Of a stretch of 22,905 nt of DNA, positions 1-22,691 are shown in pieces; position 1 is the stretch's first letter, and each line of letters begins with the position of its first letter. This stretch comes from a virus: positions 1 to 22,905 of IMG/VR virus record IMGVR_UViG_3300009495_001299; one strand, written 5' to 3'. The translations under genes and the position numbers were made by a program. The notes beneath the pieces were generated by a model that ran no database searches, had not been told where the DNA came from, and was given only the letters and a program-made list of their open reading frames with translations.

Positions 1-189
1 CAAGGGCATGTTGGGTTTTATATAGGCGAACACTTAGATAGCGATCGTTGGGTAATACTTGGTGGCAATCAAAGCAACAGTGTAAGATATGACTTATACA
101 ATCCTAAGCAAGCATTAGGTATAAGACGGTGGCCCCAGCAAGAAGACGTACCCGGAAGTATGCCAAGAATATTTGATAAATCTGAATAA
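1..189 (+). CDS. C-terminal part of a TIGR02594-like cell-wall hydrolase (probable endolysin)
   Basis: The open frame runs from the window edge to a TAA at 187-189 and encodes the last 62 residues; the 5' part lies outside. It begins with GHVGFYIGE, continues with VILGGNQ and ends in a GIRRWP segment. This GHVGF ... LGGNQ ... RWP pattern is the C-terminal half of the TIGR02594 family of phage and bacterial peptidoglycan hydrolases (NlpC/P60/CHAP-like fold), where the His of GHVGF belongs to the catalytic site. The catalytic Cys is expected upstream and cannot be seen. Two small membrane proteins follow, which fits a lysis block. A virion-associated wall hydrolase instead of a free endolysin is also possible. 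Confidence 0.75.
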   Translation, partial: QGHVGFYIGEHLDSDRWVILGGNQSNSVRYDLYNPKQALGIRRWPQQEDVPGSMPRIFDKSE

Positions 190-192
190 ATA
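185..192 (+). promoter_or_regulatory. T4-type late promoter box (AATAAATA)
   Basis: The octamer AATAAATA overlaps the stop codon of the upstream hydrolase and sits 26 bases before the next ATG. It matches the NATAAATA late motif of marine T4-like phages and the TATAAATA box of T4, read by a gp55-type sigma factor. The other three boxes in this window begin with G, so this one is slightly divergent. Confidence 0.5.
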
Positions 193-218
193 TACATAGT
201 TAACGAAAGAGGGCAACT

Positions 219-509
219 ATGTGGGATTTAATTGAACGACTTACGGGCGATACTTTGTGGATATATACAAGTATACTTGGAGCACTAGCAGGTGCTGCTT
301 TTCTAGCATATTTTAAAGATACAAGAGCAGGGCTTTGGTGCTATGCTAAACTAGATCAATTCTTAGACTTCTTAGTTGCAAGATGGGGATTGACTTGGTT
401 CGAGCAACCTACTGATGCATGGCGTAAAAAATACCCACATGTAACTAAAAAGATTGACGAGTTAGAAGCTCGTCTTGCTAAACTAGAGGGAAAGAAAAAT
501 GGCAAGTAA
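219..509 (+). CDS. Small membrane protein with C-terminal coiled coil (lysis-region protein)
   Basis: 96 residues. AGAGGG lies 5 bases before the ATG. Residues about 13-33 form one hydrophobic segment (LWIYTSILGALAGAAFLAYF). A soluble part rich in Trp and Tyr follows, and the last 20 residues or so (KIDELEARLAKLEGKKNGK) look like a short charged coiled coil. It overlaps the next gene by 11 bases and follows the cell-wall hydrolase and a late promoter, so it is probably expressed late. One membrane segment with a coiled tail fits a holin accessory or a small virion/membrane protein. I recognise the type from marine T4-like phages but know no assigned function. Confidence 0.8.
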   Translation: MWDLIERLTGDTLWIYTSILGALAGAAFLAYFKDTRAGLWCYAKLDQFLDFLVARWGLTWFEQPTDAWRKKYPHVTKKIDELEARLAKLEGKKNGK

Positions 510-831
510 ACAAGTAACTATGGATGCTGAAACAGCAGCCAAAATGGACACTAACGGAGACGGGCACATCTCTGCAGAAGAAGCAGCAATGGATCTTGAA
601 TTCAAGCGCAAGCGTTTAGAAGACAATGATGCAATGCGTGATGCACAGCGTCAAATGGCCTGGTTTGCATTATTTGGTATGCTACTATACCCATTCGCTG
701 TTGTAGCAGCAGTATTCATGGGACTTAACGAAGCAGCGACTACGTTAGGCGGAATGGCTCCTACATACTTTGTATCTGTAGCAGCTATCGTAGCAGCGTT
801 CTATGCTAAAGAAGCAGTAGTCAATAAGTAA
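499..831 (+). CDS. EF-hand membrane protein, holin-like candidate
   Basis: 110 residues; GAGGG 8 bases before the ATG supports the start. Residues 17-28 (DTNGDGHISAEE) are a canonical 12-residue EF-hand loop: D17, N19, D21, G22, I24, S25 and E28 fill positions 1, 3, 5, 6, 8, 9 and 12. A charged helix (residues 32-52) is followed by two membrane helices at about 54-75 and 84-103, with a short polar turn between. Small size, two membrane helices and position after a wall hydrolase suggest a holin or holin regulator; the single EF-hand suggests calcium binding. Similar proteins occur in marine T4-like phages, but I know of no proven function. A virion membrane-interaction protein is the main alternative. 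Confidence 0.8.
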   Translation: MASKQVTMDAETAAKMDTNGDGHISAEEAAMDLEFKRKRLEDNDAMRDAQRQMAWFALFGMLLYPFAVVAAVFMGLNEAATTLGGMAPTYFVSVAAIVAAFYAKEAVVNK

Positions 832-837
832 CAACAC

Positions 838-874
838 TAATAGTCCATGCGATAAGTAATTGTATGGACTATTA
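838..874 (+). promoter_or_regulatory. Hairpin covering the dnaJ start codon
   Basis: Bases 838-848 and 864-874 are a perfect 11-bp inverted repeat (TAATAGTCCAT / ATGGACTATTA). In RNA the stem can grow inward by four pairs (849-863 G-U, 850-862 C-G, 851-861 G-U, 852-860 A-U), leaving a 7-base loop. The dnaJ ATG (864-866) lies inside the 3' arm and no clear Shine-Dalgarno precedes it. The structure could repress dnaJ translation or act as a weak terminator for the upstream genes; there is no long T-tract, so terminator is the weaker reading. Confidence 0.6.
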
Positions 875-1679
875 TTCTACACTTGGCGTTGGCCGTAACG
901 CTACTCCGGAAGAAATAAAAAAAGCATATCGCAAACAAGCGATGGCGCACCATCCTGACCGAACAGGCGGAGATGATACACAGTTCAAACAGATTCAAGA
1001 AGCGTATGCTACACTAAGCGACACTAATAAAAAGCAACAATACGACAATCCGCAACCGACATTTAATGACGCATTCGGACGAAACTATGACGATATGTTT
1101 AATCAGATGTTTGGCGGACGAAATAGACGTATGCGTAATAAAGATATATTATGCACAGCACAAGTAGATTTAGTAGATATCATAAAAGGCAAACGACTTG
1201 ATATAGAATATAATCTACCGTCAGGTATATCTCAAACTGCAACAGTACAAGTGCCAGCTGGCATTGAAAATGCTGTAACAATGCGATACACAGGACTAGG
1301 CGATAATTCAATTCGACAAATGCCAAGAGGCGACTTATTGATAAAAATAATCATAAGACACCCTAAGGGCTGGGATCGAGAAGGTAACAATTTAATAACA
1401 ATGACCGACATAGATCCGTTCGAAGCAATGCTAGGATGTCGAAAAATAATTCGTACACTTGAAAATAAAACTCTACAACTTACTATACCGCCGGGGTGTC
1501 AGCCAGGACAAGTCTTTAGTATTAGTGACCATGGATTGATAAATCCGCACACTAGAAGACGAGGAAATATCTACGTAAAAATAAAATTAAATGTGCCGAA
1601 AGTGGATGACAACAGTGGTGAAAGTATGTTACAATATGTAAAGGAAGCACAAAATGAATATAGTAAAATACCCCGATGA
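864..1679 (+). CDS. DnaJ/CbpA-like Hsp40 co-chaperone
   Basis: 271 residues. The J domain (residues 1-65) starts right after Met with DYYSTLGV and carries HPD at 30-32, the tripeptide that stimulates DnaK ATPase. A short Phe/Asn/Arg/Gly-rich linker (FGRNYDDMFNQMFGGRNRR) follows, then both DnaJ C-terminal substrate-binding domains (about 85-250). There is no CxxCxGxG zinc finger, so it is a type II/CbpA-like protein. No DnaK is seen here, so it presumably recruits host DnaK, perhaps for virion assembly or to redirect chaperones. The J domain beginning at codon 2 fixes the start at 864 although no good ribosome site is visible; the start sits in a hairpin. It overlaps the deformylase gene by 26 bases. 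Confidence 0.95.
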   Translation: MDYYSTLGVGRNATPEEIKKAYRKQAMAHHPDRTGGDDTQFKQIQEAYATLSDTNKKQQYDNPQPTFNDAFGRNYDDMFNQMFGGRNRRMRNKDILCTAQVDLVDIIKGKRLDIEYNLPSGISQTATVQVPAGIENAVTMRYTGLGDNSIRQMPRGDLLIKIIIRHPKGWDREGNNLITMTDIDPFEAMLGCRKIIRTLENKTLQLTIPPGCQPGQVFSISDHGLINPHTRRRGNIYVKIKLNVPKVDDNSGESMLQYVKEAQNEYSKIPR

Positions 1680-2160
1680 ATGGCTAAACACTATTTGTGA
1701 GCCGTTTGACTTTGAGACTGATCCCGATCCAAAAGAACTGGTAAAGGAAATGATTGAAACAATGTACGAAGCTAACGGTATAGGATTAGCAGCACCACAA
1801 GTTAAGTACAACAAAGCATTGTTTGTATTTAAACCTGCTAATATTCCTGATCATACTGAGGCCATTGCAGTATTCAATCCTAGTATTATTAATGTAGGAA
1901 CTGGACTAGACACTGCAACAGAAGGTTGTTTAAGTCACCCAGGACTATTGTTAGATATTAAACGCCCTGACAGCGTAACTACAGAGTACCTTGATATTCA
2001 CGGACAGAAACGTGTATTGTTTTTACAAGGTATTGATGCACGATGTTTCCTACACGAATTCGATCACTTGTGTGGAACAGACTTTACCCATCGAGTAAGC
2101 AAATTAAAAAGAGATATAGCTCTAAAAAAACTAAAGAAAAGGAATAAGCAACATGGTTGA
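1654..2160 (+). CDS. def: Peptide deformylase
   Basis: 168 residues, the usual bacterial length (E. coli about 169). It removes the formyl group from N-terminal formyl-Met of new proteins. All three family motifs are intact: GIGLAAPQ at 42-49, EGCLS at 90-94 with metal ligand C92, and HEFDH at 134-138 with ligands H134 and H138 and catalytic E135. The enzyme should therefore be active. AAGGA about 8 bases before the ATG supports the start inside the end of dnaJ; the 3' end overlaps clpA by 8 bases. Peptide deformylases are known from marine cyanophages, where they are thought to keep protein maturation going late in infection. Here the gene lies between two other proteostasis genes, which suggests a joint role. 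Confidence 0.97.
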   Translation: MNIVKYPDEWLNTICEPFDFETDPDPKELVKEMIETMYEANGIGLAAPQVKYNKALFVFKPANIPDHTEAIAVFNPSIINVGTGLDTATEGCLSHPGLLLDIKRPDSVTTEYLDIHGQKRVLFLQGIDARCFLHEFDHLCGTDFTHRVSKLKRDIALKKLKKRNKQHG

Positions 2161-4399
2161 ACCAAGCGAAGCATTACAAATTGTATTTGATAAAGCAGTT
2201 GACGATGCGCAAAAGCTTCGACACGAATATGTAACACTAGAGCACTTGCTCTTTGCTATGATGTGCGAAGAAGAGTTTTCTAAACTCGTAGCAGAATATG
2301 GTGCAAACGTTGAATACATTAAAACTAACCTTGAGCAATACCTCAAGAAAGAGATCGAAAGCCTGCCCGGAACAGAACGTTACAAGCCGCAGAAAACAAG
2401 CGGAGTAGAGCGAGTTCTTAATAGAGCTTTTACACAAACTCTCTTTAACGGACGTAAAGAAATTACAATTGTTGACGTTTTCCTAAGTGCGCTACATGAA
2501 AAGAAAAGCTACGGCAATTACTTCTTAGAAAAGGCAGGAATTGAGAAAGACAAATTCCAAGCATTTGTTAGCCACTCTAGCTCAGAAGACGAGATTGACG
2601 AAGAAGTAGATGCAATTTTGCAAAAGGCACTTGATGCCTTTACTACAGACCTTAACTCGGAAGTAGTTAAAGGAAAAATTGATCCAGTTATCGGTCGAGG
2701 CGAAGAACTTGAAAGTATTGCACTTGCATTGGGTCGTCGTAATAAAAACAACGTATTGCTAGTAGGCGATCCGGGTGTTGGTAAAACTGCTATTGCAGAA
2801 GGACTTGCATATAATATTGAACAAGGTACTGTTCCAGAATTCTTAAAAGAATATGCAGTTTACAACCTAGATATTGGTAGTATGCTTGCAGGTTCGAAAT
2901 ACCGTGGAGACTTTGAAGAACGCTTCAAGATGGTTGTAAAAGCATTGCAGAAAAAAGGTAAGACTGTAATGTTCATTGATGAAGCACACATGATTAGTGG
3001 TGCAGGTGCAGGCGGCGGCAACAGTGCAAACGATCTTGCTAACATGCTGAAACCGGCACTGAGCAAAGGTACTATTAAAGTTGTTGCTTCAACTACATGG
3101 GAAGAGTATCGCAAGCACTTTGAAAAGGATCGTGCATTGATGCGTCGATTCCAACGTGTAACAGTTGACGAGCCTACTTCAGAAATGACTGTAAAAATTC
3201 TACAAGGTATTAGAAAATATTACGAAGAGTTTCACGGGGTTACTATTACATCAGAAGCTATTGATGCGGCAGTTAAACTTTCAGTCAAATATCAGTACGA
3301 TAAAAAATTGCCTGATAAAGCAATTGACTTACTTGACGTTGCATGTTCGCGCTTCAAATTGAAAGAAGCAACTGGCGAAACAATGGTAGTTGATGTTGAA
3401 CAGATCCAATACGAACTTTCTAAGATGGTTAATATTCCAGAAGAGACTGTTAAAGAAGCAGAAAGCGAAAGCCTTGCAAATCTTGACAAGAATATGAAAG
3501 CAGAAGTATTTGGCCAGGATGAAGCAATTGATCAAATCGTTGACAAGATCCATATTGCACAAGCAGGTCTAAAATCAGAAAACCGTCCAGTTGGTAGCTT
3601 TGTATTCATGGGTCCAACAGGTTGTGGTAAAACTGAAACTGCTAAACAGTTGAGCAAGCACTTGGGTATTCCATTAGTACGCTTTGACATGTCAGAGTTT
3701 ATGGAGAAACACTCAGTTGCTAAGTTTATTGGATCACCTCCAGGATATGTTGGTCACGAAGAAAACGCAGGCTTGTTGATTACTAAACTACAAGAAACAC
3801 CTAACTGCGTATTGTTGTTAGACGAGATTGAAAAAGCACACCCAGATGTTTCACAAATTCTACTACAGATTATGGACAATGGTTTTGTTACAGGTTCGAA
3901 CGGTAAAGTAGCAGATGCACGTAATGCAGTTCTTATTCTAACTACTAACTTAGGTGCAGCAGCAAGTGAACAAAATACAATCGGGTTTGGTAGTGACTCA
4001 AGAGATTACGAAGATGCAGAAATCAAACGCTTCTTTGCTCCAGAGTTTAGAAACAGACTTGACGGCATTATTACTTTTGACAAGTTAGGTAAAAATGTAA
4101 TGATGAAAATTGTTGGCAAGTTCTTGCTGGAACTTAAACAACAAGTAGTCGACAAGGATGTAACAATTAGTGTAACGGATGATGCACTTGACTTTTTAGT
4201 TGATAAAGGCTTTGATCCTAAGATGGGTGCAAGACCGTTGCAGCGTGTTATTGATCAAGACATTAAACGTCCACTATCTAAACTATTGTTGTTTGGTGAC
4301 CTTAAAGGTGGCGGAACAGTTGAAGTTGACATCAAAGATGATGCACTATTCTTGCGCACTAAAGTAACGATTGCGGAAGAAGCAGTTGTCGAATCCTAA
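2153..4399 (+). CDS. clpA: ClpA-type AAA+ unfoldase
   Basis: 748 residues, close to E. coli ClpA (758). Order: Clp N-terminal repeat domain (about 1-140), first AAA+ with Walker A GDPGVGKT (205-212) and Walker B/DEAH (276-279), second AAA+ with Walker A GPTGCGKT (487-494) and DE at 557-558, then the C-terminal small domain (MGARPLQRVI). The two ATPase rings are joined without the long middle domain of ClpB, so this is an unfoldase rather than a disaggregase. Between the second Walker B and the PEFRNRLD motif lies IGF (610-612), matching the ClpP-docking tripeptide of ClpA/ClpX. The phage protein may thus feed substrates to host ClpP. No ClpP or ClpS is seen nearby. It starts inside the end of def and is the last gene of the proteostasis run. 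Confidence 0.96.
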   Translation: MVEPSEALQIVFDKAVDDAQKLRHEYVTLEHLLFAMMCEEEFSKLVAEYGANVEYIKTNLEQYLKKEIESLPGTERYKPQKTSGVERVLNRAFTQTLFNGRKEITIVDVFLSALHEKKSYGNYFLEKAGIEKDKFQAFVSHSSSEDEIDEEVDAILQKALDAFTTDLNSEVVKGKIDPVIGRGEELESIALALGRRNKNNVLLVGDPGVGKTAIAEGLAYNIEQGTVPEFLKEYAVYNLDIGSMLAGSKYRGDFEERFKMVVKALQKKGKTVMFIDEAHMISGAGAGGGNSANDLANMLKPALSKGTIKVVASTTWEEYRKHFEKDRALMRRFQRVTVDEPTSEMTVKILQGIRKYYEEFHGVTITSEAIDAAVKLSVKYQYDKKLPDKAIDLLDVACSRFKLKEATGETMVVDVEQIQYELSKMVNIPEETVKEAESESLANLDKNMKAEVFGQDEAIDQIVDKIHIAQAGLKSENRPVGSFVFMGPTGCGKTETAKQLSKHLGIPLVRFDMSEFMEKHSVAKFIGSPPGYVGHEENAGLLITKLQETPNCVLLLDEIEKAHPDVSQILLQIMDNGFVTGSNGKVADARNAVLILTTNLGAAASEQNTIGFGSDSRDYEDAEIKRFFAPEFRNRLDGIITFDKLGKNVMMKIVGKFLLELKQQVVDKDVTISVTDDALDFLVDKGFDPKMGARPLQRVIDQDIKRPLSKLLLFGDLKGGGTVEVDIKDDALFLRTKVTIAEEAVVES

Positions 4400-5069
4400 C
4401 AACACTACTAAACTATTCTACGGCAAGTATACGTACAGACTAAGCGTATACTGTGTCGTAGCTAGTATATTTAGAAATAAAGATTTCAACTATGCAAAAT
4501 ACAAATTGGATAGTTGGAATCAAGACGTCGGTGACGGCCGTGTTCCTCAATTAGGAATTTACGGAACAGGTGACTCGATTCCAATAAGCGAGTTACACCT
4601 TGCTTTAAAACTACTAAACATCTTTAAAACGGCACCTACTGAGTTTACTTTAAGAATCGAAGGTCGAACTTTAAATATCTTTTCTAACGATATTACATGG
4701 TTAACGCAAGTAGAGACACTGTTAGGTGAAAGTGCATTAGAGTTAATTGGCCCTAAAAATTCTAAAATTGCTGAATACTTATTAAAAAATCCCAAGCATC
4801 AACTTGCAATTTTTAAAGGCTTTAGATACAAAGTAAAAACTAAGTTTGTAAGGAAAGACTGCTCCTCGTTTGGATCCTGGTGTCAAAACGTTAAAGGTGT
4901 AAAAATAAGTAAACAATTTCAAAAAGAACTTCTAGAAGATTCGTACTTGTCAGAAGGTAGAAATATTTACGTAAAGGATGAAAAAACCTTAAATATAGTT
5001 ACATTATTAATAGGAGAAGGTATACAAAGTATTACCTACTTAGTAGACCCCAACGAACTAGATATTTAA
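4386..5069 (+). CDS. Conserved phage protein of unknown function (TTG start)
   Basis: About 227 residues, no domain I can name. No ATG opens the frame. TTG 4386 has GGAAGAA 5-11 bases upstream and overlaps clpA by 14 bases; the longer TTG at 4371 adds five residues (MRKKQ) and looks less likely. Visible: a Tyr-rich N-terminus (KLFYGKYTYRLSVYCVVASIF), an alpha/beta-like middle (about 60-130) with a hydrophobic ELHLALKLLNIF helix, a basic patch around residues 145-165 (KGFRYKVKTKFVRKD) and a C-terminal beta/alpha region. There is no signal peptide or clear membrane segment. It lies between clpA and virion genes and is probably translationally coupled to clpA. The first late promoter of the fibre block begins 7 bases after its stop. 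Confidence 0.75.
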   Translation: MSNPNNTTKLFYGKYTYRLSVYCVVASIFRNKDFNYAKYKLDSWNQDVGDGRVPQLGIYGTGDSIPISELHLALKLLNIFKTAPTEFTLRIEGRTLNIFSNDITWLTQVETLLGESALELIGPKNSKIAEYLLKNPKHQLAIFKGFRYKVKTKFVRKDCSSFGSWCQNVKGVKISKQFQKELLEDSYLSEGRNIYVKDEKTLNIVTLLIGEGIQSITYLVDPNELDI

Positions 5070-5075
5070 AGTAAG

Positions 5076-5083
5076 GATAAATA
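5076..5083 (+). promoter_or_regulatory. T4-type late promoter box (GATAAATA)
   Basis: GATAAATA followed by CA, only 4 bases before the ATG at 5088. The surrounding sequence TTAAAGTAAGGATAAATACA is nearly identical to that at 6127, differing at one base. The match to the marine-myovirus late motif and its repetition before adjacent virion genes support the call. Confidence 0.7.
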
Positions 5084-5087
5084 CAGT

Positions 5088-5513
5088 ATGTCCAGTAGAA
5101 GCACAATATTACAACCATCAATTACATACGATGTACAACGAGTACTACCGTATATTACAGAGAAAATAGCCGGTGACGGGTATTTTGGAAGCGGTGACGG
5201 AAATCACACTGTTCAGTTTAGCTTAGATAGCTTTACTGGAAAGTTTCATGTCGAAGCAAGCATTGCAAATAATCCAACAGACAATGATTGGATTACTATT
5301 AAATTAGCAGAGCCAACAGTTAATACTACACAACTAACAGTATTAGCATCTGGCGCTGTTTCTCAAAGCGGAAATCTCGTAAGTGATATAGAATATACTG
5401 CATCTGAATCAAGTACAAAAATCTATAACTTTATAGGTAACTTTACTTGGGTTAGAGTTGTTGTTGAAAACTGGAACACAGGAACAGTAAACAGTATATT
5501 GTTAAATCACTGA
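5088..5513 (+). CDS. Probable small virion structural protein
   Basis: 141 residues, rich in Ser, Thr, Asn and Val in alternating patterns typical of beta-sandwich virion proteins. There is no signal peptide or membrane helix. It contains NPTDNDWITIKL and ends in a segment like a cellulose-/carbohydrate-binding jelly-roll strand pair (FIGNFTWVRVVVENWNTG). Its place directly before two tail/head fibre genes under the same type of late promoter argues for a structural role, possibly a fibre or decoration protein. The late box ends 4 bases before the ATG, so the transcript would carry almost no leader; AAGG 11 bases upstream is a poor ribosome site. Exact function is not known. Confidence 0.75.
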   Translation: MSSRSTILQPSITYDVQRVLPYITEKIAGDGYFGSGDGNHTVQFSLDSFTGKFHVEASIANNPTDNDWITIKLAEPTVNTTQLTVLASGAVSQSGNLVSDIEYTASESSTKIYNFIGNFTWVRVVVENWNTGTVNSILLNH

Positions 5514-5523
5514 GAGATGAGTA

Positions 5524-6120
5524 ATGGCTAAACAAACAATAAACATAGGTGCTTACGAATTTGATTTAGACGCAGATACTTTACGGGAAGCATTTAGTAA
5601 AGCAAACGACAATTTTGCAGAACTATACGCAAATGATGCGGCACCGACTAATGTTGATATGACATCTCAGACTCTCGGCCGTACTAACAGTCTTGGTCAA
5701 TGGATCCCGTTCATAGTAACTGATTCTATTCAATCAACTCTGCAAGATGAGATACCGGCAACTAATGTAGTAGGCGGTCTTATTGAAAAGACAGTTTACT
5801 CAAAACAGTTAAGTAGGTACACATCTGGTGGCGAACTCCTACTGACTTTATTGTGTAACACTGACGGCAATGATTTTTACACAACTAAAAAGTTTGTTTT
5901 TAGTAGAACTGCAACATCTACATTTAATGTAACTGAAATGGGCACTGCTGGTGCATCAGAAATCTATGATAGTATATTGATAGAAGAAAGGCTTGACGGA
6001 ACCGATCTGTATTTAGAAGTTACAGTCAAAGCACCTGATTCGGGATTACCATTTATTAGGGTTGTTGGGCAAATAACATATACTAGTGTACCAATATTCT
6101 TAACAGCGTCAGGATATTAA
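5524..6120 (+). CDS. Virion/fibre-associated protein with NDNFAELY repeat motif
   Basis: 198 residues. The N-terminus INIGAYEFDLDADTLREAF...KANDNFAELY matches the motif (DTLRxAFxKxNxNFxELY) at the start of many phage structural and fibre proteins of marine myoviruses. The rest (about 50-198) is Thr/Ser/Val-rich and beta-like, with FFTTKKF-type and LYLEVTVKAP strands. GAGATGAG just before the ATG serves as ribosome site; the gap to the upstream gene is only 10 bases. A structural role is inferred from the motif, composition and position between two other structural genes. A fibre or neck protein is likely; I cannot assign a T4 number. Confidence 0.8.
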   Translation: MAKQTINIGAYEFDLDADTLREAFSKANDNFAELYANDAAPTNVDMTSQTLGRTNSLGQWIPFIVTDSIQSTLQDEIPATNVVGGLIEKTVYSKQLSRYTSGGELLLTLLCNTDGNDFYTTKKFVFSRTATSTFNVTEMGTAGASEIYDSILIEERLDGTDLYLEVTVKAPDSGLPFIRVVGQITYTSVPIFLTASGY

Positions 6121-6126
6121 AGTAAC

Positions 6127-6134
6127 GATAAATA
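6127..6134 (+). promoter_or_regulatory. T4-type late promoter box (GATAAATA)
   Basis: GATAAATAC lies just after the stop of the upstream gene and 28 bases before the ATG at 6163, leaving a leader of about 20 bases with AGGAA at 6150-6154. Flanks TTAAAGTAACGATAAATACA repeat those of the 5076 box. This is the best-placed late promoter in the window and probably drives the long fibre gene and the head-protein genes after it. Confidence 0.75.
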
Positions 6135-6162
6135 CACATAGTATATTATAGGAAATACAGGA

Positions 6163-8943
6163 ATGGCAAATAAAGTACCGTTAATAGTCGATATAAACGA
6201 TAATAACAAAATAAAAGAATTACCAGTCGGCGATAATTTAGATTTAAGTGGAAGTGATATTTCACAAGTTGCTAACATAACTGCAACTGGAGTTATTAGA
6301 CAAGCAGGCTTACCTGTGAGTACGTTTAGTGGCGACTACAATGATATAAACGGATTACCAGTTATACCTTTTAGAACCAGTGATCTTGTTAATGACGGAG
6401 ACGGCGTACCGAATCTTACATTTATTACAGCAGCAGATGTTCCTCCTTTTTCCGATACTTTAAATGATGTTGTCCAGCGTGGCCAAACATCACTTGCTGG
6501 CATTATTATTGCTACTCCTACACAAGATATTGGGATTAGTGCATCGACACAAAATAATAACGTAGCAAACTTTACATTTAATAATACTAACGACCAGACT
6601 GACACTCCTGCATTATTAGCTCTTAAACATTCTGACCAAGCAATTGGTAAATTAGCTAACTTACAATATGACGGTAGAGATAATGCTGGTAACCAAGTAA
6701 CATACGGGCAGTTTGAAATGTCTGTATTGAATAACACTCAACTAGGACTAACATCACGTTATACGTTTCGAGTACGCGAAACAGGCGGCTTAGTTTCACC
6801 TTTACAAATTGCAGGGAGCGGAATTACAGTTACAGGAACAATGGATGGTAATGTTGTTTCTTCTGGAACAAGCACTTTTAATGATGTAGATATTGCTACA
6901 GCTGATATTACTTCTAGTTTAACTATGGGTTCGCTGTCTTTTAATGCAGTAACTAATACTATACAATCTGGTACAACTAGATTAAATATTGGTTCTAATA
7001 ATACTAACATTACTATTGGCGGCGCAGGAAACACTGGCATTGATATTGAAACTGCTAAAGTAAATGTTAGCGGTGTATTAGAAGTTGATGGTGATTTCAA
7101 AGCATCAACTTTTCCTTTAACAGCTAACTTTGAAAATGGTTTAAATATCCTAGGTAGCAATCCTAATTTTACAATTAGATCAGAAGACCAGTTTGCAAAC
7201 TACGGTTCTACAGCAAGTATTAAATTACAAAGTGACAGAAAAAATCCTCCAATTAACAATGACCATAGTACATTTAATGTTGTTGGGTTGACAGCACAGG
7301 ATGACTGGGCTTCATACAGAACAGTTGCTAGGATCAGAGTTGGTACTGAAGATGACGAATCGGTATTAGGTGCAAATCAAAGTTCATTCTTTTACAAGTT
7401 TGAAAAGTTTGATAACACCCATGTTCCGGTTAACACAGGCGACTATACAAGCATTCCATTTGTAGTTGGTTACAACAGTGAACCATCAGGTGCTAGTGGT
7501 GATGTATACAAAGCAACTATTGTCAACTTCTACAATGCACAAGATGACTTTATTGTACTTGGTGGCAGTGTAGATGGTAATGGTTTCCCAAATAAATTAC
7601 TTAAAGTAGATTATGCAACTGAAGTTGTTAGCACACATGCTGATGTTACTGTAGGCGGCGAACTTACTGTAAATGGTACTGGCAATTCAAGTGTTGCTGG
7701 CAGCTTAACTGTAACTGGTGATTTAATTGTTAACGGAACAACTACTACAGTTAACACAACTGAATTAGAAATTACTGATAAACTTATTACAGTTGCTAAT
7801 GGATCATTAAACGCTGCGGCAGCGACAGGAGCAGGCATCGAAGTTGACGCAGGTGTCGATGCTAATCCTAGTCTCACATATGTTAATGCAACAGACAGTT
7901 GGTCTTTTGATAGATCATTAGTTATAGCAGGAACCAACAGCGTAACAGCTACAACATTCTCAGGAGCATTATCAGGCAACGCTACAACAGCAACAACCTT
8001 ACAAACAACTCGTGCTATTAACGGTGTTAACTTTAATGGTAGTGCAAATATTACTATCAAAGCAGAAACTCCTAATGCATTCCAGGCAGGTACAGGTATC
8101 AGCTTTGGTGCAGGAGTTACTGAATGGACAGGCGATGCTGTAAGAACTATTGCTAATACTGATTTAGGTAGCGCACAGTCTATTATTAAAACCATTACTG
8201 TTGCTGATACTATCGGTTCATTTGTAATGGCAGAAACAGGAAGCTACAGTGTAAGTGGTAACGCAGACACATTTACATTTATTGGTAGCACAGCAATTGA
8301 TATTGACATCGATGCAACTAACGGTGCTATACAAATACTCAACACAGGTGTTACAGCTCTTACAACAGGAACTGGTCTAAGCACCAATTCAAGTGCTACT
8401 GGTGCAGTAAGTATTACTAACACTGACAGAGGTAGTGCGCAAGATATATTCAAAACTATTGCAGTTACAGGCTCAAACAGCATTGTTGCTGACAGTAATA
8501 GCGACACAGTTACATTTACAGGCGGCGCCGGAATTACGCTAACTGGCAATGCAACAACTGACACATTAACTATTGCAAACAGTGGTGTTACATCAGTTGC
8601 TGCTGGCAATTACATAAGTGTCGGTATTAGCGGAACCGATTACACTGTAACAAATACCGGACTTAACACAGTTACCGGAACTGCAAACGAAATTGAAGTC
8701 GGCACAAAGAGTGGCGGCAGTCAAGTAATTGGCCTTCCAAATAGTGTGCAAATTAATACACTAACTACTACAACACAGCTTAACAGTTCAGGCGCTACTA
8801 GAATAGGTAATGCTGTTACAGATACCTTACGTATTGATGCTGGTGTAGGACAAGGTGCAGGCCCAGTAGATGCTGTTACTCCAGCAGGGTATGTACAGGT
8901 AAGCATAAACGGCGCTACGGCATACTTGCCGTACTTCCAATAA
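6163..8943 (+). CDS. Long fibre-like virion protein
   Basis: 926 residues, the second-longest gene here after clpA-sized enzymes and the longest structural one. Near the N-terminus (about 50-75) is a GDYNDINGLPxIPxxTSDLVNDGDG stretch, like the short fibre repeats (YNDLxNKPxIP) of cyanophage and T4 gp37-like proteins. Around residues 523-547 VNGTTTTVNTTELEITDK and LITVANG form a signature I know from marine myovirus structural proteins. Residues 665-840 hold two copies of an about 88-residue repeat. The C-terminus ends GYVQVSINGATAYLPYFQ, a terminal motif of several such proteins. Composition is Thr/Asn/Gly/Ala rich, as in beta-helical trimeric fibres. It probably decorates the tail or head and may contact the host. 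AGGAA at 6150 supports the ATG. Confidence 0.85.
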   Translation: MANKVPLIVDINDNNKIKELPVGDNLDLSGSDISQVANITATGVIRQAGLPVSTFSGDYNDINGLPVIPFRTSDLVNDGDGVPNLTFITAADVPPFSDTLNDVVQRGQTSLAGIIIATPTQDIGISASTQNNNVANFTFNNTNDQTDTPALLALKHSDQAIGKLANLQYDGRDNAGNQVTYGQFEMSVLNNTQLGLTSRYTFRVRETGGLVSPLQIAGSGITVTGTMDGNVVSSGTSTFNDVDIATADITSSLTMGSLSFNAVTNTIQSGTTRLNIGSNNTNITIGGAGNTGIDIETAKVNVSGVLEVDGDFKASTFPLTANFENGLNILGSNPNFTIRSEDQFANYGSTASIKLQSDRKNPPINNDHSTFNVVGLTAQDDWASYRTVARIRVGTEDDESVLGANQSSFFYKFEKFDNTHVPVNTGDYTSIPFVVGYNSEPSGASGDVYKATIVNFYNAQDDFIVLGGSVDGNGFPNKLLKVDYATEVVSTHADVTVGGELTVNGTGNSSVAGSLTVTGDLIVNGTTTTVNTTELEITDKLITVANGSLNAAAATGAGIEVDAGVDANPSLTYVNATDSWSFDRSLVIAGTNSVTATTFSGALSGNATTATTLQTTRAINGVNFNGSANITIKAETPNAFQAGTGISFGAGVTEWTGDAVRTIANTDLGSAQSIIKTITVADTIGSFVMAETGSYSVSGNADTFTFIGSTAIDIDIDATNGAIQILNTGVTALTTGTGLSTNSSATGAVSITNTDRGSAQDIFKTIAVTGSNSIVADSNSDTVTFTGGAGITLTGNATTDTLTIANSGVTSVAAGNYISVGISGTDYTVTNTGLNTVTGTANEIEVGTKSGGSQVIGLPNSVQINTLTTTTQLNSSGATRIGNAVTDTLRIDAGVGQGAGPVDAVTPAGYVQVSINGATAYLPYFQ
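8155..8682 (+). repeat. Two copies of an about 88-residue repeat in the fibre gene
   Basis: Copy 1 begins at 8155 (NTDLGSAQSIIKTITV) and copy 2 at 8419 (NTDRGSAQDIFKTIAV), 264 bases apart. After the shared opening both show a DT(F/V)TF strand and NxGVTxxxxG before the next unit. Similarity is stronger in protein than in DNA, so this is an old duplication kept by selection. The end of copy 2 is approximate. Confidence 0.65.
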
Positions 8944-21087: not shown

Positions 21088-21258
21088 ATGAAAATTAAAT
21101 TAGAAATAGAGTTAGATACAGACAAACAAACGGATCTTGATTTAGTTGACGATCTTATGGACGAGTTGGCTAGCTTTCGAGAAATTTTAGAAACTAAACA
21201 ACAAAACCTAAATAAAAGACCAGCTAACACAAACAGAAAACCTAAGGCGAAAACATAA
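21088..21258 (+). CDS. Small acidic/basic protein of unknown function
   Basis: 56 residues from ATG 21088 with GGAG 6 bases upstream; an in-frame TTG at 21070 lies inside the polymerase gene and looks wrong. The product begins MKIKLEIELDTDKQTDLDL, continues as an acidic helix (VDDLMDELASFREILETKQ) and ends in a basic Asn/Lys tail. No known domain. Its place directly after DNA polymerase, coupled by TAATG to the cytidylyltransferase, suggests real expression. Confidence 0.65.
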   Translation: MKIKLEIELDTDKQTDLDLVDDLMDELASFREILETKQQNLNKRPANTNRKPKAKT

Positions 21259-21674
21259 TGAAGGTAGGATTTACTTGTAGTACGTTTGATTTGTTACATG
21301 CAGGTCATGTGCAAATGTTGCGTGAAGCAAAAGAACAATGCGACTATTTGATCTGCGGATTACAAGTAGATCCTAGCATTGACCGTGCAGAGAAGAACGC
21401 TCCTATACAAACTGTTGTGGAGCGTTACACTCAGCTAAAAGCAGTTAAGTATGTTGACGAAATTATCCCCTATGGTACAGAAGACGACCTAGAAGATATC
21501 TTGACAATGTACAATATTCATGTTAGAATATTAGGAGAGGAGTATCGTGACAAAGACTTTACAGGTAAAGATATTTGTAGACGGCGCGATATTGACTTAC
21601 ATTTTAACAAGCGTGATCACCGTTTTAGCTCAAGTGATTTACGCAAGCGAGTAGCAGAAAGCGAAAACAAATGA
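21258..21674 (+). CDS. TagD-like cytidylyltransferase
   Basis: 138 residues, the size of B. subtilis TagD (129). The fold starts FTCSTFDLLHAGHVQML with nucleotide-binding HAGH at 14-17 and ends with RFSSSDLRKR (122-131), the counterpart of the ISSTxxR motif. These enzymes use CTP (or ATP) to activate a phosphorylated alcohol or sugar, e.g. glycerol-3-phosphate to CDP-glycerol. VVERYTQLKAVKYVDEIIPYG in the middle is typical. The following phosphomannomutase and epimerase genes point to sugar or glycan activation. Substrate is not determined; an ADP-heptose-type or RfaE-like role is possible. Confidence 0.85.
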   Translation: MKVGFTCSTFDLLHAGHVQMLREAKEQCDYLICGLQVDPSIDRAEKNAPIQTVVERYTQLKAVKYVDEIIPYGTEDDLEDILTMYNIHVRILGEEYRDKDFTGKDICRRRDIDLHFNKRDHRFSSSDLRKRVAESENK

Positions 21675-21823: not shown

Positions 21824-21984
21824 TGTGGACTCTTTTTATTATTAGTACAGTTATTGGACTAGACGAACCTAAAGTAACACGCTATGCAGAGTATGCTACT
21901 GCACTAGAATGTCAGCAGGCTTGGTACAAAGTAACTTCAGAATTTACACAAGACGAAATAGCATTTTGCGAGGGACCTAAATGA
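21823..21984 (+). CDS. Small cysteine-containing protein, 53 residues
   Basis: The ATG overlaps the previous stop (TGATG) and GGAG lies about 8 bases upstream. MWTLFIISTVIGLDEPKV is a short hydrophobic start, then YAEYATALECQQAWYKVTSEFTQDE and AFCEGPK. Two cysteines with an Ala/Tyr-rich helix recall small exported phage proteins, but I recognise no family. It overlaps the mutase gene by 4 bases (ATGA). Confidence 0.6.
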   Translation: MWTLFIISTVIGLDEPKVTRYAEYATALECQQAWYKVTSEFTQDEIAFCEGPK

Positions 21985-22691
21985 ATAAGTTTATATTTGA
22001 TGTAGACGGAACACTAACACCTAGCCGCAAAGGCATGGATGGAGAGTTTCAAGGTTACTTCTTAGACTTTTGTTATGCAAATGAAGTTTACTTGGTTACA
22101 GGCAGCGACTATCCAAAAACATTAGAGCAAGTCGGTCCTGATGTTTGCGAAGCAGTAACACGTATCTACAACTGTAATGGCAATGACGTATGGGAAAAAG
22201 GTGTAAACATTCGTACTAATGATTGGATTATTTCTGAAGAAGTACACGAATGGCTAGCTAATAAGCTAACCGAAAGTGCTTACACAGTACGCACAGGACT
22301 GCACTTTGAACATCGGCCAGGGCTTGTTAACTTTAGTATAGTTGGACGCAATGCTGATAACGAACAGCGAGCAGAATATGTTGTGTATGACGAGTTGTCT
22401 GATGAACGGAATATTATTGCTAAAGGGTTTAATCTAAAGTTTCCTGACTTACAAGCTACTGTTGGTGGCGAAACTGGTATTGATATTAGTCCTATAGGAT
22501 TTGACAAAAGTCAGATTGTTGAAGATTTTGATGAGGAAGACACACTATACTTCGTTGGAGATAGAATGGATCCCGATGGCAACGACTATCCGCTTTCATT
22601 AGAAGTAGATGTAGCAAAGCCGGTAACACGATGGCAAGAAACTTTTGAATACTTGCAATCATTACAAGAAACAGGAGTAGCAGCAGAATGA
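21981..22691 (+). CDS. Eukaryotic-type phosphomannomutase (HAD superfamily)
   Basis: 236 residues, near the length of human PMM2 (246). HAD motif I is FIFDVDGTLTPSR with D7 (nucleophile) and D9. HRPGLVNFSIVGR (111-123) corresponds to the RxGMLNVSPIGR substrate motif of PMM2-type enzymes, GGETGIDISPIGFDK (162-176) to GGxxSxDVFPxGWDK, and FVGDRMDPDGND (191-202) to the FFGDKTxxGGND metal motif. It would interconvert mannose-6-phosphate and mannose-1-phosphate for GDP-mannose, or a related sugar phosphate. Such alpha-PMMs are mainly eukaryotic and uncommon in bacteria. It overlaps neighbours on both sides, so it sits in one sugar-activation unit. Confidence 0.88.
   Translation: MNKFIFDVDGTLTPSRKGMDGEFQGYFLDFCYANEVYLVTGSDYPKTLEQVGPDVCEAVTRIYNCNGNDVWEKGVNIRTNDWIISEEVHEWLANKLTESAYTVRTGLHFEHRPGLVNFSIVGRNADNEQRAEYVVYDELSDERNIIAKGFNLKFPDLQATVGGETGIDISPIGFDKSQIVEDFDEEDTLYFVGDRMDPDGNDYPLSLEVDVAKPVTRWQETFEYLQSLQETGVAAE

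Follow-up and report, generated by a model that had tools for sequence, protein, structure and literature searches.

The window, by which we mean the whole 22.9-kb virus record analysed here, carries the following features in and around its ClpA-type gene.

185..192, + strand: AATAAATA, candidate T4-type late promoter into the 219-4399 gene run (consensus match only)
219..509, + strand: small conserved ORF, 96 aa, the first gene behind the ATAAATA motif at 185
499..831, + strand: small ORF, 110 aa, with an EF-hand-like stretch, ending 33 nt before DnaJ
864..1679, + strand: DnaJ-like J-protein, 271 aa, J domain with HPD plus DnaJ_C (Pfam DnaJ 80 bits, DnaJ_C 104 bits)
1654..2160, + strand: peptide deformylase (PDF), 168 aa (Pfam 146.8 bits; GIGLAAPQ, EGCLS and HEFDH)
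2153..4399, + strand: ClpA-type two-ring AAA+ unfoldase, 748 aa (Pfam, NCBIfam, PHROG 4871, phmmer, Foldseek)
3980..3988, + strand: codons of I610-G611-F612, the ClpP-docking tripeptide (aligned on E. coli IGL; [IV]GF in 81/81)
5076..5083, + strand: GATAAATA, candidate late promoter of the virion-related gene 5088-5513 (63/63 loci)

A phage ClpA and its gene neighbourhood

The 748-aa protein is a phage ClpA and a member of an already known family. A sequence-only reading had described it as a ClpA-class protein with an N-domain, both Walker A/B pairs and no ClpB middle domain, and this description was confirmed by Pfam, motif and phmmer analyses. The Clp_N domain scored 33.8 bits against a cut-off of 20.7, and the further Pfam domains (AAA, AAA_lid_9, AAA_2 and D2-small) make up two AAA+ modules with lids. 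Walker A motifs are present at 205-212 (GDPGVGKT) and 487-494 (GPTGCGKT), Walker B residues at D276/E277 and D557/E558, and pore loops at 249-252 (KYRG) and 531-534 (GYVG). Residues 7-727 are collinear with residues 5-735 of E. coli ClpA with small gaps only, and there is thus no ClpB middle-domain insert. The protein therefore has the make-up of Hsp100 class I (ClpA), namely an N-domain, two AAA+ modules, D2-small and no ClpB/Hsp104 middle domain, together with a ClpP-docking tripeptide of the form [ILV]G[LF] in D2 (IGF, 610-612); the marks of a ClpB disaggregase (a middle domain and no ClpP loop) were not found in it.

The best solved relatives were E. coli ClpA structures (1ksf, 6uqo and 7uiv), and the phrog_4871 profile matched over its full length (821.9 bits, residues 6-738 on profile positions 10-758 of 764). 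The top NCBIfam model was the bacterial ClpA equivalog TIGR02639, whose 891 bits lie below the curated cut-off of 993; the protein is therefore filed as phage ClpA-like and not as the bacterial equivalog. An AlphaFold2 model, built from an alignment of loci-derived rows only (mean pLDDT 78.8, pTM 0.48), matched ClpA and ClpC chains in Foldseek, its domain arrangement being only moderately confident.

Full-length ClpA had been thought uncommon in phages, a view refuted by the counts in GenBank phage, IMG/VR and PHROG data and by published cases. A tblastn search of the GenBank phage collection matched 178 records, a minority of them mislabelled bacterial contigs, and 58 covered at least 80% of the query. 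IMG/VR yielded at least 305 related stretches, of which 80 were kept (68-89% identity). Most RaK2-like phages reportedly have a highly conserved ClpA, and Agrobacterium phage Atu_ph07 encodes ClpX, ClpA, ClpB, ClpP, ClpS and DnaJ (Attai et al. 2018, PMC6102473); ClpP, ClpS, ClpA and ClpX have also been discussed for jumbo phages (Iyer et al. 2021, PMC7824862). The best cultured match, 'Acinetobacter phage MD-2021a', was rejected as a close phage relative on account of its bacterial gene context: its ClpA has argC, clpS and aroF as neighbours and groups with Acinetobacter ClpA in the tree. The MD-2021a records (L256, CAKLQF020000008.1), with their argC, clpS-clpA and aroF context, are apparently mislabelled host contigs, and several Listeria, Staphylococcus and Enterococcus 'phage' matches may likewise be mislabelled.

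A phylogeny against bacterial ClpA, which the sequence-only reading had called for, placed the window ClpA among phage ClpAs. Its viral clade forms one group (support 100) and is joined with the PA5oct, Phosso/Atu_ph07 and RaK2-like ClpAs (99), apart from 27 bacterial rows; because of long branches, the deeper placement is tentative. Recent theft from a host is unsupported, as the top bacterial matches are 43-47% identical and the viral clade is a single group. The DNA polymerase neighbours agree with the ClpA tree (Phosso 49%, Atu_ph07 45%, then Vibrio 2.275.O and RaK2-like phages), and from both we conclude that the window derives from a jumbo-type T4-related phage lineage. Rhizobiales are the hosts of the two cultured relatives nearest to it, so that one might guess at an alphaproteobacterial host. 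Near the DNA polymerase gene, the window also encodes a cytidylyltransferase-like protein (138 aa, 21258-21674) and, close to it, a HAD/phosphomannomutase-like protein (236 aa, 21981-22691).

The genes of the run overlap in the window, PDF beginning before DnaJ ends, and ClpA before PDF ends. Among the loci (L001-L080 and the window) with at least 1.6 kb of sequence upstream of ClpA, DnaJ is immediately upstream of ClpA, with or without PDF between them, in 70 of 70, and PDF intervenes in 53 of these. A homologue of the 96-aa ORF precedes ClpA in 51 viral loci. The DnaJ-ClpA adjacency persists where PDF has been lost and extends to distant jumbo phages: Phosso has the order DnaJ-PDF-ClpA, and Atu_ph07 and PA5oct have DnaJ-ClpA. 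In RaK2, 121Q, Munch, Vibrio 2.275.O and an Erwinia phage, ClpA is found without DnaJ, amid tail or structural genes. Among the papers covered by a literature search, none was found on the DnaJ-PDF-ClpA combination in marine phages.

Bacterial DnaJ works with DnaK and ClpB, and we know of no direct DnaJ-to-ClpA client pairing in bacteria. DnaK was not found in the contigs longer than 120 kb of nine relatives; therefore, should the J-protein require a partner, host DnaK would fill this role. It is also conceivable, if rather doubtful, that DnaJ and ClpA work together as a dedicated machine of the phage, in which the J-protein would hand aggregating or misfolded clients directly to ClpA (with ClpP). 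The strict DnaJ-ClpA gene linkage provides a testable hint of an undescribed cooperation and is the most interesting by-product of our analysis.

The ClpP-docking loop

The IGF at residues 610-612 had been proposed to occupy the ClpP-docking position, and in the phmmer alignment it indeed falls in register with the IGL of E. coli ClpA and not outside the docking loop. Across the window and 80 viral relatives (n=81), 72 have IGF as the tripeptide and nine have VGF; G611 and F612 are invariant in all 81, though the Gly position uses all four of its codons and the Phe position both, while positions 603-605, 607, 609 and 614-618 of the surrounding loop vary. Since G and F remain unchanged despite synonymous codon change within a varying loop, the tripeptide is under purifying selection and, judged by its codons, is kept beyond what mere similarity would give. 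Residues 608-620 have pLDDT values below 50 in the AlphaFold2 model and are predicted to be disordered, as expected for the flexible loop (residues 610-628) that cryo-EM has shown to seat in the ClpP clefts (PMC9663308, PMC7707817). The idea that IGF marks ClpX-like docking was rejected, as IGF is the commonest docking tripeptide among the sampled proteobacterial ClpAs (54/80).

Such retention is not automatic in phages, since the ClpAs of RaK2-like and some other jumbo phages have drifted: the tripeptide is IGV in RaK2 and Vibrio phage 2.275.O, IGM in 121Q, VGM in the Erwinia phage and MNM in Munch. An uncultured 735-kb phage has QGM, and PA5oct, Phosso and Atu_ph07 retain IGF. These alignments show that loss of the classical motif is possible in a phage ClpA, and that it has not happened in the window's family. 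The entries with drifted loops are L258, L260, L262, L263, L264 and L265 (RaK2-like and some other jumbo phages); RaK2 itself encodes a divergent ClpP although its tripeptide has drifted. Taken together, the sequence data support well that the window ClpA docks on ClpP, and we consider such docking very probable.

Promoter motifs and the choice of ClpP

The NATAAATA motif, which we take to be akin to the T4 late promoter TATAAATA, is expected by chance at about 0.03 per 120 bp. It was found upstream of the next virion-related gene (the homologue of 5088-5513) in 63 of 63 loci and upstream of the first gene of the upstream run (the 96-aa ORF) in 30 of 50, and an ATAAATA-type motif was never found directly before DnaJ, PDF or ClpA in the loci examined. 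From this distribution, GATAAATAC looks like a late promoter of the window's phage lineage. Because the motif precedes the flanking units and not the three genes themselves, the ClpA run is most likely transcribed by read-through from the candidate promoter at 185, and ClpA is probably expressed late. A window-wide enrichment of TATAAATA was rejected: with one mismatch allowed, 39 copies were found against 50 expected, so that the informative part is the position upstream of certain genes only. A scan of 1-6200 for sigma-70-like promoters (15 found, 18.1 expected by shuffling) gave no information. On the + strand of the window, NATAAATA motifs lie at 185, 5076, 6127 and 14125, all four 12-36 nt before a start codon.

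No ClpP gene was found in the window. The earlier statement that none is encoded here is thus true of the window but says little, since the record is a fragment, covering only 22.9 kb of a jumbo-type phage. Among 45 relative contigs, ClpP is present in five (G006, G015, G038, G040 and G043) and ClpS in three (G006, G030 and G040), G006 and G040 having both. In these phage ClpPs the Ser-His-Asp triad is intact and the cleft, in which position Y60 is changed, is still mostly hydrophobic, and the phage ClpSs keep the N-degron pocket (N34, D35, D36, T38, P39, M40, V43 and H66), with cleft and pocket numbers as we presume them from the E. coli proteins. The window N-domain retains equivalents of E23, E28, T81 and R86, which we take to serve ClpS binding via the N-domain in E. 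coli ClpA; E23/E28-type residues are general to the fold. An Hsp20 gene precedes each ClpS gene (L087, L088 and L089, from G040, G030 and G006, respectively), and in the long contigs of nine relatives Hsp20 and ClpS are adjacent and occur only together. Shortly after Hsp20-ClpS in these three loci lies an ORF that, from reading its translation, is presumably heme-oxygenase-like.

These genes weaken the view that the partner must be host ClpP, since some relatives carry ClpP/ClpS and the window is a fragment; what stands is that the loop is selected, also in large relatives without ClpP. The partner might instead be the phage's own ClpP (with ClpS), encoded beyond the 22.9-kb fragment, in which case host ClpP would be unneeded. 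Besides the contig counts above, the PA5oct-like phages and Phosso, which carry ClpA, ClpP and ClpS, are in line with this, as is Atu_ph07 (PMC6102473). However, the long contigs whose DNA polymerase is closest to the window's (G014, 236 kb, 87%; G046, 257 kb, 86%; G012, 135 kb, 86%), which are of uncertain completeness, have ClpA, and neither ClpP nor ClpS was found in them or in the 45-kb contig of the closest ClpA relative, L001; we regard an own ClpP as the partner as rather unlikely. The largest relatives without ClpP that keep the loop are G014, G046 and G030 (330 kb), for which host ClpP would be the simplest docking partner. ClpA with an intact loop is kept both with and without a phage ClpP; this favours the host partner without settling the matter, and for the window ClpA host ClpP appears, on balance, the likelier partner.

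Function and comparison with known systems

The explanation that we favour, with moderate confidence, is a late-expressed DnaJ-(PDF)-ClpA unfoldase that would dock ClpP, the host's where the phage has none, for late protein turnover and quality control. ClpA would be translated within the gene run, probably read through from the late promoter, and six subunits would form a double-ring motor through whose pore proteins are threaded. The [IV]GF loops, carried by the D2 ring, would then seat in the hydrophobic clefts of the ClpP ring, where the unfolded chain would be degraded. The partner would be host ClpP in lineages without their own, and elsewhere could be phage ClpP, with phage ClpS as an adaptor. 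The likely task would be the late-infection turnover of misfolded or aggregating late proteins, amino-acid recycling and possibly the degradation of host ClpAP substrates, with the neighbouring J-protein bringing clients or providing a link to host DnaK. Against this explanation, the window's phage may carry its own ClpP further along, and the late promoter is a consensus match to a motif that is not enriched window-wide.

In every phage lineage inspected, ClpA has virion genes as neighbours, an arrangement that would also suit a chaperone of virion assembly. As such a ClpP-free unfoldase, ClpA would remodel large tail and fibre proteins with the J-protein, a role in assembly that has been proposed for jumbo-phage ClpA/ClpX (PMC7824862). 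The tail or structural genes beside ClpA in the window, RaK2, 121Q, Munch, the Erwinia phage and PA5oct, the strict DnaJ linkage and the drifted RaK2-like loops all point in this direction. Nevertheless, a chaperone acting without ClpP would not need the docking G and F, which are invariant under synonymous change, and the protein lacks the ClpB middle domain for DnaK coupling; we thus consider this role unlikely for the window ClpA. The redirection of host ClpP to specific defence or regulatory proteins, which had also been suggested, would require only docking and an altered N-domain, and the viral N-domains do show fixed changes against the sampled bacteria (E. coli positions 77, 80, 84, 85 and 89), but it seems improbable, as the clade is old, widely kept and not fast-changing, and as the virion genes around the gene run, with their late-type promoter motifs, speak mildly against an early role in countering defence, phage takeover genes usually being early.

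Turnover through ClpP remains our preferred reading, and it relates to known systems as follows. E. coli ClpA resembles the window's over its whole length (45% identity), with the same domains and the loop in register, but it has IGL rather than IGF and is a bacterial protein encoded next to clpS. In Atu_ph07, as in the window, DnaJ adjoins ClpA (gp293 and gp292, respectively) and the loop is IGF, whereas PDF does not intervene and ClpX, ClpB, ClpP and ClpS are also encoded (PMC6102473). Sinorhizobium phage Phosso, the top DNA polymerase match (49%), has the same three genes in the same order; it differs in its size of 469 kb, in encoding a ClpP and a ClpS itself and in its ClpA, which is only 44% identical to the window's.

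More broadly, the phage 'ATP-dependent protease' family phrog_4871 (RaK2, 121Q, Munch, PA5oct, Atu_ph07 and Phosso) likewise consists of two-ring full-length ClpAs, from large, T4-related phages; the window ClpA groups with them and not with the sampled bacteria, at 35-45% identity to the cultured members. Our analysis describes a large clade of mostly uncultured phages in which what looks like a working ClpP-docking unfoldase is kept, and it reveals variation among relatives in the possession of a ClpP and ClpS of their own. The window's family retains a strict [IV]GF, in contrast to the drifted loops of the RaK2-like members of phrog_4871, and the two thus offer a natural comparison for asking whether a phage ClpA acts via ClpP or as a chaperone.
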